In this document: piece after piece, positions 1,751 through 15,570 of the stretch
How the letters are laid out: every line of letters starts with the position of its first letter
Position numbering within the stretch: the first letter of the stretch is position 1
DNA from: an uncultured Roseburia sp.
Lineage (GTDB): Bacteria; Bacillota_A; Clostridia; Lachnospirales; Lachnospiraceae
NCBI GenBank assembly: GCA_900753715.1
Contig: CAAEAE010000098.1
Location: forward strand, 1-23,552
Direction: 5' to 3'
DNA length: 23,552 bases
Made by a program: the position numbers and the translations under genes
The notes under the pieces: generated by a model
Told to the model about the DNA's origin: nothing
What the model saw: only the letters and a program-made list of their open reading frames with translations
Database searches by the model: none

Positions 1751-1787
1751 AAAAAAGCAGCCAGTCTTGGGGAGACTGGCTGCTTTT
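1751..1787 (-). terminator. Intrinsic terminator of small-RNA copy 1
   Basis: An 11-bp perfect stem (1757-1767 with 1773-1783) and 5-nt loop, extended by A/T pairs to 15 bp. On the minus strand it is followed by six T (1756-1751). It also ends read-through from the chemoreceptor gene. The A-run/T-run symmetry could let it work weakly on the plus strand as well. Confidence 0.85.
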
Positions 1788-1849
1788 AGGAGAAGGTATT
1801 TTTACTATGGGGTATAGTAAAAACTATATATAATGTATTGGGGGTTTTT
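1751..1849 (-). ncRNA. Candidate small RNA, copy 1 (C-rich loops, about 99 nt)
   Basis: Read on the minus strand from a predicted start near 1849: five A then CCCCC (1844-1840), an AU-rich stretch, a 10-bp hairpin (arms 1823-1814 and 1808-1799) closing an ACCCC loop, an unpaired linker with CCTTCTCC, and an intrinsic terminator with loop CCCCA and six U. The 67 bases 1784-1850 match copy 2 (4064-4131) except for one extra C in copy 2. No reading frame with an ATG exists on this strand. It lies between the chemoreceptor stop (1940) and the transporter promoter. The copy-to-copy conservation of promoter, hairpins and terminator in non-coding DNA is the basis for calling an RNA. Family unknown to me; function (SD-directed antisense regulation) is inferred. 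Confidence 0.65.
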
Positions 1850-1855
1850 ACATGT

Positions 1856-1906
1856 ATTATAATATCATGTCCCAGCCAATAAGTGTGCACAAACTTCACA
1901 ATTTTT
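1856..1906 (-). promoter_or_regulatory. Promoter and conserved upstream block of small-RNA copy 1
   Basis: A perfect TATAAT (1861-1856) lies 19 bp downstream of a 26-bp block (1906-1881) that is identical in copy 2 (4187-4162). On the minus strand the block contains TTGTGAAGT followed directly by TTTGTGCAC, an imperfect direct repeat of TTGTGMA with a 9-bp period. The 19-bp spacer itself is not conserved, as expected for promoter DNA. No good TTGACA lies at 17 bp, so the block may be an activator site or a non-standard -35 region. It begins about 32 bp after the chemoreceptor stop codon. Confidence 0.6.
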
Positions 1907-1937
1907 CATATATATTTTTGTGCACTATGTATATTTT

Positions 1938-3716
1938 CTATACGATGAACCGTTCTACGTTCTTCTGTAATTCATCCGCTGACGCATGTGCCGCCGCTGC
2001 CTTTTCTTTGATTTCAGAAGCACGTGTTACAACAACCCCGGTCTTTTCTGCAATATCTGACGTTCCGGTCGCACCTTCTGTTGCTGCCTTGCTGACTTCC
2101 GTAATTGCATCCATCACACCATTGATAGATGCCAGCAATTCTTCCGATGAAGCAGAAAAATCCGTTACAAGTGAATCTACCCGTTCCGCATCCTGGCTAT
2201 AAGAATCCGCTATTTTGGAAAATTCCGCCAGATTCTGTACCACATCCGTTCCGACAAATTCCAGAAGCTGTTTTGCCCCGTTTGCTAAATTTTCTACAGC
2301 TCCGACCACATTCTGGGTAACATCCTGGATGTGTACAACCGCAGCCTTTGACTGCTCTGCAAGAACTCTGATTTCATCCGCAACAACTGCAAATCCCTTT
2401 CCGGCTTCTCCTGCACGTGCAGCCTCGATAGAAGCGTTGAGTGCCAGCAGATTTGTCTGCCCTGTAATCTCCATAATAGATTCCGCAAGCACCTCAATCT
2501 GGTCTACAACCTTGATATCTTCAAGTGCTTTTGTGAGACCAGAATTAATTTCTCCGTGAACCTGCTTGGTGCGCCTGTCATTCTCATCTGTCGTTGTCTT
2601 AATACCTACTGCACGCTCACGGATTTCATCCGCCTCCGTTGCACCATCCTGAGAACGCACTGCAATACTCTTTGCTGCACTCTCAATTTCATGTGACATG
2701 GCATTGATTTCTTCCGAGGATGCTGCAGTCTCTTCCATACCCGCCGCAAGTTCCTCTGTGGTGGCGGAAACACTTTCGATTTCTTCATCCAAAGCCGTAA
2801 TATTTTCATCAATCTCCTGAACCATACTTGTAATTTCGAGTGCTTCTTCCTTAACTGCTCCAATCAGCCTGCCCACTTCCGTCCGCATAGCTTCCAAGGA
2901 TACCGCAAGCTGCCCAAAATCATCCTGCTGTTTTAACAGATTTGCATCCAACGCATGGGAAAAATCGCCCTGTTCCATCTGTTTTAAAGATTCTTTTGCT
3001 TTCTGCAGCGGCTTTACAATACTAATAATAATGGCAATCAAAAGTGCCACAAGAATTGCGCCCTCAATAAAAGCAGCGGCAGAAAATACCGCTCTTCTTT
3101 CTGAAGCATAATTGGAAAAATCAGCTTTTACAGCCGCAATCTGGTCATCAATGTGGTCGGTATAATTTCCAGTCCCAATCACCCAGCCAAATGGTTCAAA
3201 CGCCTTGCTGTAAGAACGTTTCGGAGATGATTCTGTCTCCCCTTCTTTCGGGTAAACATAGTCCGTATATCCGCCGTCCGGCTCCTGACCAATACGGATG
3301 ATTTCTTTTACCATCTGATATCCATCAGCATCCTTTGTCTCCATATGGTTCGTTCCCTCTGTCTGGCTTCCGAGTAAAACTACATTTGTGCCATCGTACT
3401 GGTCAACCCAGAAATAACCACCCTCTCCATAACGAAGTGCACGAATCTCATCTGCCGCAATCTTTTTAGCCTCATCCTCAGTGTATTCCCCCGCCTGATA
3501 CTTATCATAAATCACCTGGCAAAGAGATATTACATTTTCAACCTGCTGTTTGATAAGTTCGTCATACGACTCTCTCTCATCATTTTCGATAATTTCAAGT
3601 GCCTGATTCTGCATCTGTGCCATACTGTTTGTAGAAAAAACAACACACAACGCAAGTGCTGCAATCGCAACAAACATTACGATTAACAGCTTAGTCCGTA
3701 CCTTCATATTTCTCAT
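1938..3716 (-). CDS. Methyl-accepting chemotaxis protein with Cache sensor domain
   Basis: A 592-residue chemoreceptor. TM1 is at about 9-28. The extracellular sensor (about 35-205) has the sCache_2 signature [12 protein letters not shown] (99-110) and [12 protein letters not shown] (176-187), typical of small-molecule-binding single Cache domains. TM2 is at about 212-234, a HAMP domain at about 235-288, and the cytoplasmic coiled-coil signalling domain follows. The conserved CheA/CheW-binding hairpin tip is [21 protein letters not shown] (417-437, shown except its last two residues in the family core). The C-terminus NVERFIV lacks a CheR/CheB tethering pentapeptide. The ATG at 3716 follows AGGAGG at good spacing. 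No other chemotaxis gene is adjacent. Ligand unknown. Confidence 0.93.
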
Positions 3717-3792
3717 CCCAAACTCCTCCTATCTTTTTCATGATTTTCTCTGTCTTAAATCATATTTCTTTTGACTTTAACATCTAATAAAT

Positions 3793-3821
3793 AGTGTATC
3801 ATATTTCCTATATTTTCGCAA
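3793..3821 (-). promoter_or_regulatory. Possible promoter of the chemoreceptor gene
   Basis: TTGCGA (3821-3816), a 17-bp spacer and TACACT (3798-3793) preceded by TGA (extended -10), read on the minus strand. Each hexamer matches 4 of 6. I looked for a motility sigma-28 promoter (TAAA-N15-CCGATAT), which often drives chemoreceptor genes, and found none at correct spacing. Confidence 0.4.
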
Positions 3822-3835
3822 TAAGACGCACAATA

Positions 3836-3866
3836 AATCCCCGACCTTATAATTGAGCCGGGGATT
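3836..3866 (-). terminator. Terminator-like hairpin after the InlB-type remnant
   Basis: An 8-bp stem (AATCCCCG 3836-3843 with CGGGGATT 3859-3866) lies 20 bp beyond the stop codon of the surface-protein remnant on the minus strand. The following T-run is short and interrupted (TTTATTG), so termination may be weak. Probably the original terminator of the lost gene. Confidence 0.5.
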
Positions 3867-3886
3867 ATCACTATCCTGTAAAATTT

Positions 3887-4027
3887 CTATTTTTTCTTCC
3901 ACTTTGCATAAAATGTGACGTTTCTGGTACTGCCCTTCTTTATCTGTGTCACTTTCTTCGTGCATTTCTTATCGGAATACCAGCCTTTAAAGATGTAGCC
4001 TTTCTTTTTAAAACCATTCTCCGGCAA
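3887..4027 (-). pseudogene. C-terminal remnant of an InlB-repeat surface protein
   Basis: An open frame without a start codon encodes 46 residues beginning LPENGFKKKGYIFKGWYS and ending VTFYAKWKKK, followed by TAG. This is the InlB B-repeat / Listeria-Bacteroides repeat fold (consensus GYTFxGWY ... YAKW), found in extracellular and cell-wall proteins of gut Clostridia, where it often forms the C-terminal end. Everything upstream of the final repeat is missing: the frame runs directly into the terminator of small-RNA copy 2 (U-run at 4036-4030). I therefore read it as a decayed 3' fragment left by a deletion or rearrangement rather than a short functional gene. No ribosome binding site and no start codon were found. 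Confidence 0.75.
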
Positions 4028-4029
4028 AC

Positions 4030-4067
4030 AAAAAAAGCCCCCGGTCTTGGGGGAACCGGGGGCTTTT
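4030..4067 (-). terminator. Intrinsic terminator of small-RNA copy 2 (and of ftsH)
   Basis: A GC-rich 9-bp stem (4037-4045 with 4055-4063) is extended by four A/T pairs. The inner part holds one wobble, one mismatch and the conserved 5-nt loop. Seven T follow on the minus strand (4036-4030). It is the only strong terminator downstream of ftsH. Confidence 0.85.
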
Positions 4068-4130
4068 AGGAGAAGGTATTTTTACTATGGGGTATAGTAA
4101 AAACTATATATAATGTATTGGGGGGTTTTT
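4030..4130 (-). ncRNA. Candidate small RNA, copy 2 (C-rich loops, about 101 nt)
   Basis: Second copy of the element at 1751-1849. On the minus strand from about 4130: five A, six C (4125-4120), AU-rich stretch, 10-bp hairpin (4103-4094 with 4088-4079) with ACCCC loop, linker containing CCTTCTCC, then the terminator with loop CCCCA and seven U. It differs from copy 1 by one extra C near the 5' end and by the terminator stem, where three base pairs are exchanged by compensatory changes. It lies just downstream of ftsH and abuts the InlB remnant. The same gene-tail location as copy 1, in unrelated flanking sequence, suggests a dispersed small-RNA family. Confidence 0.65.
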
Positions 4131-4136
4131 ACGTGT

Positions 4137-4187
4137 ATTATAGTACCATGATGTACTCCAAAAGTGTGCACAAACTTCACAATTTTT
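4137..4187 (-). promoter_or_regulatory. Promoter and conserved upstream block of small-RNA copy 2
   Basis: TATAAT (4142-4137) sits 19 bp downstream of the same 26-bp block (4187-4162) seen at copy 1; the spacer sequence differs between copies but its length does not. Additional TTGTGCA-like motifs occur between the block and the ftsH stop codon (for example TTGTGCATA at 4260-4252), echoing a second GTGCAC (1920-1925) near copy 1. Confidence 0.6.
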
Positions 4188-4259: not shown

Positions 4260-6086
4260 TTACGCTTCAAACAATGCCTCAAACTCCTGCTGGCTGATTT
4301 TCTCTTTCTCCAAGAGAAGGTTTGCACAGGCATCGAGTACGCTGCGGTTTTCCATGATAATGGTGCGCGCTTTATCGTAGCACTCATCAATAATCCGCTT
4401 GATTTCCTGGTCAATTGCGGTTGCAACCCCTTCACCATAACCTCTTGTATGTGCAAGGTCTCTGCCGATAAATACCTCATCGTCATCGTTATCGTAACAA
4501 ATCAGACCGATATTTTCTGACATTCCGTACTTGGTGACCATCGCCTTTGCCATCTGGGTTGCCTGCTTGATATCCTGGGATGCGCCGGTTGTAATATCAT
4601 CAAATACCAGTTCTTCCGCCACACGTCCGCCGAGAGAAACAATGATATCCTGTAACATCTTTCCCTTGGTGTTAAACATCTCATCCTTTTCCGGCAACGG
4701 CATCGTATAGCCGGCTGCACCTGCTCCGGTCGGAATGATGGACACGGAGTAGACCGGTCCGACATCCGGAAGTACATGGAATAAGATTGCATGACCGGAT
4801 TCGTGGAATGCCGTGATACGCTTCTCTTTTTCTGAAATGATACGGCTGCGCTTCTCTGCGCCGATTCCGACTTTTACAAACGATTTCTTGATATCATTCT
4901 GGGTGATAAATGCACGGTCTTCCTTCGCTGCAACAATTGCTGCCTCATTTAACAGATTCTCAAGGTCTGCACCGGTAAATCCGGCTGTCGTCTGCGCAAT
5001 CTCTTTCAGGTCGACGTCATCGCCGAGCGGCTTATTCTTGGCATGAACCTTAAGAATCTCTTCTCTGCCACCCACATCCGGACGTCCCACATGAACCTTT
5101 CGGTCAAAACGTCCCGGACGCATAATTGCCGGGTCTAAGATATCGACACGGTTGGTCGCCGCCATCACAATAATTCCCTCGTTGACTCCAAATCCATCCA
5201 TCTCGACAAGCATCTGGTTTAAGGTCTGCTCGCGCTCGTCATGTCCGCCGCCCATACCGGTTCCACGGCGTCTTGCCACCGCATCAATCTCATCGATGAA
5301 CACGATACAAGGTGCATTTTTCTTTGCCTCTTCAAACAAATCGCGGACACGGGAAGCTCCGACACCCACGAACATTTCCACGAAATCAGAACCGGAAATG
5401 CTGAAAAATGGCACACCTGCTTCTCCTGCAATCGCTTTTGCAAGAAGTGTCTTACCGGTTCCCGGAGGTCCCACAAGAAGGACACCCTTCGGAATTCTTG
5501 CTCCGAGCTTTGTATACTTGCCTGGAGCCCGTAAGAAGTCTACAATCTCCTGTAGTTCTTCTTTTTCCTCTTTCAATCCGGCTACTTTATCAAACGTCAC
5601 ACGCTTTGCCGGGTCATCCATCATCATCTTGGCACGGCTCTTGCCAAAATTCATCATCTTGCTGCCGCCGCCTGAGTTTGCGGCTGCCTGGTTGGACATG
5701 ATGATAAAAAAGATAAACATTGCCGCAAAGATAATAAGATATGGCAGGATTGCGACAAGCCAGCTCTCCTCCGGCGGATTCTGTACAACATATTTTAAGA
5801 ATCCGTTTTCTTGCAGATACTGCTCCATTTCCTGTACATCGCTTACTACCAGTACCTTCGTGCTCGCATCTTTAAATGTAATTTCAAGGCTTCCGGTTGG
5901 AATCTCCCGGTTCTGGATTACCTGAATGGATGCAATCTGGTCTGTCTGTAATGCAATTTCAAATTCTGCTCTGGTGTAAGTATTCGTTGCAGATGAACCA
6001 TCCAGCCAGTACCAGATAGCGATTACTGCGAGAATCAGCAGCAGATAAAAACCAAATCCTCTGTAAGTGCTTCTTTTTGTATTCAA
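4260..6086 (-). CDS. ftsH: ATP-dependent zinc metalloprotease FtsH
   Basis: A 608-residue membrane-anchored AAA+ protease that degrades unfolded or regulatory membrane and cytosolic proteins as a hexamer. TM1 is at about 11-28, a small extracytoplasmic domain at 30-105 and TM2 at about 109-131. The AAA module has Walker A GPPGTGKT (206-213), Walker B IVFIDEID (261-268) and the second region of homology ending RPGRFDR (323-329). The M41 peptidase has HESGH (428-432) and a third zinc ligand Asp505 in ASQDIKQAT. Length is normal. The start codon is TTG (6086-6084) behind AAAGGAG at 9 nt; no in-frame ATG precedes TM1. It is the last gene of spoIIE-tilS-hpt-ftsH, 18 bp after hpt, the order known from Bacillus and Clostridia. 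Confidence 0.97.
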
Positions 6087-15277: not shown

Positions 15278-15304
15278 GTAAATTCCTCATTCCTGTGTTA
15301 AACT

Positions 15305-15447
15305 GCCGTGGCAGCTCGATTCCGCTTCGCTCCTTCTCGCTGTCGGGCTGTCGCCCTACCAGCCCCGTACTTCATCGCGCGTACGGCAAAAGCTCTATTT
15401 ACTCGCCGTGGCAGCTCGATACTTCATCGCGCGTACGGCAAAAGCTC
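15305..15447. repeat. Mosaic of two direct-repeat units in non-coding DNA
   Basis: Unit A, 16 bp (GCCGTGGCAGCTCGAT), occurs at 15305-15320 and 15405-15420. Unit B, 28 bp, occurs perfectly at 15368-15395 and 15420-15447 and contains GCGCGTACGGC. Between the first A and first B lies a hairpin-forming GGGCTGTCGCCC (15345-15356). In the second occurrence A and B are joined directly. The 293-bp stretch between the lipoprotein and kinase genes holds no convincing gene; small open frames across it repeat the same peptide in step with the DNA repeat. GC content is clearly higher than in the neighbouring intergenic DNA. It resembles dispersed intergenic repeat elements, but I cannot name a family. Confidence 0.7.
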
Positions 15448-15465
15448 AAAAAACCTTCGGTTTTT
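15448..15465 (-). terminator. Probable terminator hairpin after the kinase operon
   Basis: AAAAACC and GGTTTTT form a 7-bp stem with a 3-nt loop; on the minus strand six T end at 15448. It lies about 105 bp after the kinase stop, inside the repeat mosaic. A-run and T-run symmetry makes it potentially bidirectional. Confidence 0.5.
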
Positions 15466-15485
15466 CGATCCCGCGGGCGCGTTCA

Positions 15486-15538
15486 AATGACATTTTCTGA
15501 TGCGTGTATGTAAACATCACACCTCAGAAAATATCATT
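15486..15538. repeat. Long imperfect hairpin downstream of the kinase gene
   Basis: Arms 15486-15500 and 15524-15538 pair over 15 positions with one C/A mismatch. Within the 23-nt loop, GTGTATG and CATCACAC add an inner stem with one bulge. No T-run follows on either strand, so it is not a standard terminator. It lies 33 bp after the kinase stop codon. It may be an RNA-processing or REP-like element. Confidence 0.6.
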
Positions 15539-15570
15539 CTCACTTTTGCCTACGCGCTCATTATATCACA

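Follow-up and report, generated by a model that had tools for sequence, protein, structure and literature searches.

A multicopy small RNA family with unpaired C-rich motifs in Lachnospiraceae and related families, with Shine-Dalgarno sequences as its predicted sites of action

What is an intergenic element that occurs twice within a few kilobases, carries what reads as its own promoter and terminator, and leaves its C-rich segments unpaired? The question arises from the minus strand of a 23,552-nucleotide stretch of an uncultured Roseburia sp. (GenBank assembly GCA_900753715.1, contig CAAEAE010000098.1, positions 1 to 23,552), here called the window. An original prediction, made from the letters alone, had listed the parts of two such elements and proposed a multicopy regulatory RNA. 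On sequence grounds, both elements are members of a real, order-wide and often multicopy small RNA family that Rfam does not recognise and that is separate from LhrC and IsrR.

Two copies in the window and their relatives

Reading of the sequence together with a repeat finder placed the elements, with all of the predicted parts, at 1751-1906 (copy A) and 4030-4187 (copy B), 2.28 kb apart. In the sense of the transcript, each has a 26-bp upstream block identical in both copies (1881-1906 and 4162-4187), a 19-bp spacer whose sequence differs between them, TATAAT (1861-1856 and 4142-4137), a short lead, a C-run, AAUACAUUAUAUAUA, a hairpin with an ACCCC loop, AUACCUUCUCC and a terminator. The linker CCTTCTCC lies between hairpin and terminator in both. 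The copies share 91% identity over a 99-nt stretch, and the predicted fold of each is two clean hairpins, at -32.6 (A) and -32.9 kcal/mol (B). None of 200 shuffles was as stable in either case (z -9.7 and -8.0).

A pattern made of the loop and linker was scanned over one genome per species in 84,980 species and returned 65 loci, 60 of which hold true elements (three truncated by the locus end). The remaining five (L006, L008, L026, L050 and L052) were judged chance matches without the element. Titles of the true loci name Roseburia, Hungatella, Agathobacter, Eubacterium, Lachnospira, Lachnospiraceae bacteria, or the broader Clostridiaceae, Clostridiales and Bacillota, and Roseburia faecis and R. 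inulinivorans are among the named carriers. Sixty full-length copies, including both from the window, minus three duplicates, gave the 57 rows of alignment A1, from which we built the covariance model R1 (match threshold E up to 0.001). R1 matches 219 of 299 genomes (species) of the R. faecis family, the model and count across Lachnospiraceae being the check that the original prediction had proposed, and 59 of 196 genomes of the order, where the weakest matches, at 40-45 bits, are less certain. Samples of the class (17 of 391) and phylum (5 of 398) added no carrier outside the order; all of these matches were already in the family or order samples, and so none was found beyond the order. The runs used strict filters and scored few candidates per genome, making all counts lower bounds. 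Because the RNA recurs across hundreds of genomes, the element is beyond chance.

Conservation likewise supports a multicopy regulator with C-rich motifs in Lachnospiraceae, as had been proposed: at least 21 of the 219 positive genomes have two to five matches, and 198 have a single one. R. faecis has four copies, three of them within about 0.6 kb, and tandem or closely spaced copies occur in L066, L108, L112 and L134. Among 20 order-level loci fetched, most keep the box described below, the C-runs, the linker and the terminator, judged by eye; the exceptions include L113-L115 and L118-L120, which have CCUUCUCU. A divergent subgroup of the order sample (L115, L118, L119, L120 and also L114) is extended in its 5' part, where additional CCCC and CAUCCC segments precede the shared linker.

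At curated cut-offs, Rfam 15 found only a tRNA in the window and matched neither element; at E up to 10 the best match was PsrR1, whose 29 bits fall short of its cut-off of 42. In five loci that were distant or related, a single tRNA was the sole match. No Rfam family thus reaches its cut-off, be it a named RNA family, which the original prediction had not recognised either, or a known repeat. Clostridium phytofermentans is a member of the R. faecis family. A paper on its transcription start sites reports some non-coding RNAs, none recognisable as this RNA in the part of the article available to us (PMC5171806). Literature searches returned no title or abstract start on this RNA, which the supplementary tables of PMC8040213 (3161 candidates) or PMC5171806 may include unnamed.

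Conserved unpaired motifs and an upstream promoter box

Across the family, three C-rich motifs that stay unpaired are nearly invariant: the 5' CCCCC(C)-AAUAC, the loop CCCCAUA and the linker AAUACCUUCUCC. Invariant columns of A1 include C-run positions, AAUAC, CCCCAUA and AAUACCUUCUCCUAAAA, and AUUAUAU is nearly invariant. In 141 folded sequences, one of them the chance match L050, the mean predicted unpaired probability is 0.99 for the 5' motif, 0.99 for the loop and 0.87 for the linker, and it exceeds 0.5 in 141, 138 and 129 sequences, respectively; the middle C-run went undetected in three. The original prediction had also counted the terminator loop among the C-rich single-stranded patches. 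The 5' run, hairpin loop and linker are conserved as it had said, but a terminator loop rich in C is a trait of the window and is not conserved among the 57 aligned copies.

RNAalifold alone missed hairpin 1, and pairs were therefore named by hand and then counted. In A1, 93.6% of the cells of the named pairs are paired, against 31-57% after sliding, and there are 53 two-sided changes against 11 in shuffles. Forty-nine of the 53 fall in the terminator, whose stem varies freely across A1. Homologues lacking a conserved promoter and terminator had been named beforehand as a sign against a regulator, and the opposite was seen: all six counted terminator pairs have two-sided changes, and the promoter box stands upstream at ten or more of its 13 positions in 136 of 140 copies (perfect in 70). 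In L113 and L121, a different GC-rich stem takes the place of hairpin 1 and is directly followed by the second C-run; the C-runs and linker are retained. The unpaired motifs are kept while the stems change; exposed RNA sequence thus seems to be under stronger selection than the stems.

The strict box, TTTGTGnACACTT, overlaps the -35 position. It lies 12-19 bp before TATnnT in 118 of the 140 copies, and in 86 the distance is exactly 16 bp. Conservation extends to the TG of an extended -10 and to an ACAAAA block upstream, while positions 15-24 of the spacer hold about 0.1 bit each. TATAAT, the -10 originally named, is present; overlapping it, at 16 bp behind the box, copy A has TGn-TATTAT and copy B TGn-TACTAT, and these can also be read as the -10. 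Among the 18 box copies outside the spacing count, TACTAT stands at 16 bp in L067, L103, L024 and L048, whereas the box match of L025, L056 and L099 is too far upstream to count. Four copies score below 10/13 (L021, L040, L116 and L037).

The place of the -35 reads ACACTT, unlike TTGACA, which suggests that the promoter uses activation. The box and a -10 at the right distance have 29 matches in 27 genomes (one in a backward control), 26 of which are this RNA. A wide box regulon was rejected, as two of the three other matches lie inside genes and one where the RNA was unseen. Two variants of the promoter stand apart. Nine Hungatella-type copies (L009, L011, L018, L031, L043, L049, L051, L058 and L071) have a weaker box of 10-11/13 at 27 bp from TATTAT, 11 bp or one helical turn more than the usual 16 bp. 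In the related Roseburia loci L021, L040 and L053 (the last by eye), an inverted repeat (GGCCGGATA...TATCCGGCC in L021) stands where the box would be, as though a different regulator had taken the activator's place.

Table 1. Features of the two small RNA copies in the window; both copies were among the sequences used to build R1, whose scores for them are to be read with that in mind
Feature	Position	Strand	Basis
Copy A small RNA, predicted transcript about 100 nt	1751..1851	-	R1 match 1752-1851, 102 bits; fold z -9.7
Copy A promoter box TTTGTGCACACTT, overlapping -35	1881..1893	-	Sequence and box conservation
Copy A extended -10 region, TGa-TATTAT / TATAAT	1856..1867	-	Sequence and promoter conservation
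Copy A 5' C-run CCCCC, then invariant AAUAC	1840..1844	-	Sequence, alignment, folding
Copy A hairpin 1, loop ACCCC at 1809-1813	1798..1824	-	Fold and pair counting
Copy A linker AAUACCUUCUCCUAAAA, invariant in A1; anti-Shine-Dalgarno-like CCUUCUCC at 1789-1796	1784..1800	-	Sequence and alignment
Copy A predicted intrinsic terminator, U6	1751..1787	-	Sequence and fold
Copy B small RNA, locus conserved downstream of ftsH	4030..4132	-	R1 match 4031-4131, 96.8 bits; synteny
Copy B promoter box TTTGTGCACACTT	4162..4174	-	Sequence and box conservation
Copy B extended -10 region, TGg-TACTAT / TATAAT	4137..4148	-	Sequence and promoter conservation
Copy B 5' C-run CCCCCC, then AAUAC	4120..4125	-	Sequence, alignment, folding
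Copy B hairpin 1, loop ACCCC at 4089-4093	4078..4104	-	Sequence, fold, pair counting
Copy B linker CCUUCUCC	4069..4076	-	Sequence and alignment
Copy B predicted intrinsic terminator, U7, C-rich loop (loop not kept in relatives)	4030..4067	-	Sequence, fold, alignment
ftsH, conserved upstream neighbour of copy B (context, outside the RNA)	4260..6086	-	Pfam M41 and AAA; synteny

Mode of action and candidate targets

We consider it likely that this is a trans-acting small regulatory RNA family of Lachnospiraceae and related families in the order, which covers Shine-Dalgarno sequences without Hfq. Transcription, the activator, the pairing mechanism and the targets we infer as follows. An activator would bind the box over the -35 and switch on an extended -10 promoter of the housekeeping type. 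One to five gene copies would yield a transcript of about 85-105 nt that ends at the intrinsic terminator. Its three unpaired C-rich segments, at the 5' end, in the hairpin loop and in the linker, would pair with G-rich Shine-Dalgarno regions and keep ribosomes from starting, so that the mRNA is silenced with no need for Hfq. A search for Hfq (Pfam PF17209) gave no match in 29 carrier genomes; as a control, it found Hfq in 5 of 14 named genomes, including E. coli and B. subtilis.

Known RNAs offer precedents. LhrC and RsaE/RoxS have Rfam entries, and the Rfam 15 scan matched neither, even with E allowed up to 10. RsaE/RoxS use C-rich UCCC-type motifs to target Shine-Dalgarno regions in Firmicutes and are widely conserved within their order. 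The present RNA shares the C-rich motifs and the wide conservation within an order, whereas UCCC-type motifs and Bacillales hosts belong to RsaE/RoxS. IsrR is single-copy, in contrast to up to five copies here. According to the part of the source at hand, LhrC of Listeria monocytogenes is multicopy and G-poor, has a hairpin, a single-stranded stretch, a terminator and three C-rich sites, depends in all copies on the regulator LisR, blocks a Shine-Dalgarno site and binds Hfq (PMC4132741). Multiplicity, layout, number of C-rich sites and poverty in G are the same here. By that same account, the third C-rich site is the terminator loop in LhrC and the 5' end in our RNA, where loop ACCCC and linker CUUCUCC are the other two and most aligned relatives have no C-rich terminator loop; the motifs are CCCCCC, ACCCC and CCUUCUCC rather than UCCC; and the hosts are of a different order, with no Hfq match among the 29 carriers. 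LhrC expression depends on LisRK, and the present RNA has a conserved box at which an activator would bind. IsrR of Staphylococcus, as far as the available portion of its description goes, has three conserved single-stranded C-rich regions, one of 4-7 C depending on species, a conserved primary sequence with a poorly conserved terminator, and contacts to Shine-Dalgarno regions (PMC9410917). Our RNA resembles it in the three regions, the variable C-run, the conserved primary sequence and the variable terminator, but has one stem-loop plus terminator and the TTTGTGnACACTT box where that account gives three stem-loops plus terminator and Fur boxes. The findings lend no support to counting this RNA among LhrC, RsaE or IsrR, but do support, by analogy, a likeness of mechanism. 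Two marks of the C-rich, Shine-Dalgarno-blocking class are found here by conservation: C-rich segments that are both unpaired and conserved, and a promoter and intrinsic terminator of the RNA's own. The third, pairing with target mRNAs and their repression, is predicted. The segments probably act on Shine-Dalgarno sites, as the parts of the two papers available report for LhrC (PMC4132741) and IsrR (PMC9410917).

Pairing was screened computationally against 1743 start regions from 2.0 Mb of one carrier genome (G108), with shuffles for comparison. The linker CCUUCUCC pairs better with start regions, with a mean of -8.9 against -5.3 to -6.3 kcal/mol for its five shuffles, as any anti-Shine-Dalgarno sequence would. 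Duplexes below -14 number 46 at starts versus 21 in 1448 gene interiors for the 5' segment, 25 versus 23 for the loop and 40 versus 24 for the linker; the interior means are distorted by no-duplex values. Complements of the segments near ATG were also counted in the 29 genomes, against a backward control that lacks the bias of G-rich sites preceding ATG. The linker complement has 73 matches, of which 44 are the RNA's own antisense. Loci for 30 of the 73 include 11 non-RNA sites, with one clear gene start (L186, lipoprotein) and the others in genes or where there is no open reading frame; the same interior peptide coding stretch appears in L194 and L200. The complement of the 5' segment, TGTATTGGGG, has 44 matches (four are the RNA) against 13 in the control. 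TGGGGGTTTTT-ATG, the complement of the poly-A/C 5' end, has seven against none, and four of the seven are at gene starts (L381, L382, L384 and L386).

One of these, L384, is the DtxR-family gene of G149. The Pfam-identified DtxR-family metal regulator (L314:17364-17729, homologues L315-L344) is present in all 29 carriers, it has AGGGGGTTTGTATTATG in G108 and TGGGGGTTTTTTCATG in G149, and GGGG precedes the start in 9 of 30 homologues from the 29 genomes, compared with 9.5% of the 1743 start regions. It is a possible target of the RNA, which we regard as a weak lead. A transporter-ATPase candidate was dropped, being found in only 4 of 29 genomes at E 1e-100.

A number of results speak against the proposed action on Shine-Dalgarno sites. 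The 5' segment and the loop have no mean excess of pairing over shuffles in the 1743 start regions of G108, the start regions of ftsH, hpt and tilS are ordinary as targets, and non-RNA matches of the linker complement (29) do not exceed the backward control (30). Of 30 TGTATTGGGG loci inspected, three are the RNA, L366 is the one clear start of a gene and L355 a possible one. No target gene recurs among the inspected sites, the DtxR-family gene excepted. For that gene, the p value of 0.0014 (0.0045 without G108) belongs to one hand-picked gene at the top of a screen and is uncorrected for choice or phylogeny. The RNA itself is uneven in places. The 5' C-run is inconstant, with lengths of 4, 5, 6, 7, 8 and 9 in 4, 30, 60, 20, 4 and 3 of 121 copies; two-sided covariation in hairpin 1 is slight (1 of 11 pairs, four cells), and several pairs of this hairpin are broken in 8-18 of the 57 rows of A1. 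L125 and L127 carry CAUACCUC in place of the 5' C-run, L122 is without CCUUCUC, L116 and L117 lack a clear box, and the third L112 copy lacks the loop C-run.

Competing readings, genomic context and significance

CsrA binds a GGA motif and is titrated, as is RsmA, by Rsm/Csr-type RNAs. While it is conceivable that the three C-rich single-stranded segments are docking sites through which the RNA sequesters a protein in the same manner, we find this unlikely. Several similar unpaired motifs per molecule and several gene copies would fit, and the invariant AAUAC beside the C-run and the near-invariant AUUAUAU exceed what a plain anti-Shine-Dalgarno seed needs. The motifs CCCCCCAAUAC, ACCCCAUA and CCUUCUCC, however, are not one repeated site, they are C-rich and not GGA, and no candidate protein is known, Hfq being the only one searched for.

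The original prediction had treated ftsH as an unrelated neighbour, which did not hold for copy B. In 39 of 67 copies of named loci (59 with 1 kb of upstream sequence), ftsH lies within 1 kb upstream on the same strand, 35 of them at about 85-231 nt. Pfam supports the names SpoIIE, TilS, phosphoribosyltransferase (hpt) and FtsH for window genes, and homologues of these precede the RNA in many related loci. By synteny, copy B is at a conserved locus behind ftsH; copy A, between mcp and an SNF-type transporter gene, is an extra copy. Such a setting would suit a cis element, a promoter and terminator cassette that isolates or regulates a neighbour, above all the end of the ftsH transcript. We judge this highly improbable: other copies lack an ftsH in their vicinity or are arrayed in tandem with the same sequence, conservation sits in unpaired RNA segments and not in the terminator, and the ftsH start region is no better a target than average.

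Least credible of all are a short peptide encoded on the other strand and a mobile or selfish repeat without cellular function. The former takes AGGAGAAGG, 10 nt before a plus-strand ATG in both window copies, as a Shine-Dalgarno site followed by ATGGGG, but its implied length runs from 5 to more than 20 residues with many different ends (133 copies; 40 commonest), C-run length shifts the frame, and the conserved promoter and terminator are on the RNA strand (an other-strand promoter was not searched for). The latter agrees with dispersed, multiple and sometimes tandem copies, and conflicts with long-term ftsH synteny, a promoter box of strict spacing, order-wide conservation of the unpaired motifs and the single match in 198 of 219 positive genomes. 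A phage origin was rejected, as the RNA is absent from six viral contigs that carry the short pattern (best match E 0.51).

Two other stretches of the window were noted. On the minus strand between mcp and copy B (3893-4026), a frame without evident start reads KKGYIFKGWYSDKKCTKKVTQIKKGSTRNVTFYAKWKKK, perhaps a gene remnant, which we take to resemble one InlB-type B repeat. The intergenic stretch 15278-15570 has two 45-bp direct repeats (87% identical) and a minus-strand fold of -113.9 kcal/mol (no shuffles run); it had no Rfam match in the window and may be a structured RNA or a multiple terminator.

A trans-acting family that covers Shine-Dalgarno sequences could have a broader role. GacA acts through RsmY and RsmZ, and by comparison the RNA might serve an order of gut Clostridia as its core small RNA: a hub, independent of Hfq and under a dedicated activator, through which alone one signal reaches many mRNAs. 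Control by that activator would be near-exclusive because the box with its -10 is hardly seen elsewhere in the 27 genomes. We put this forward tentatively, as possible rather than probable. Our literature searches found little on the regulatory RNAs of these organisms. A small RNA that Rfam does not recognise, matched in 219 of the 299 species sampled from the family and with Hfq unseen in 29 carriers, would offer a direct handle on their post-transcriptional control, and the covariance model R1 and the promoter box are ready for use in the named carriers.

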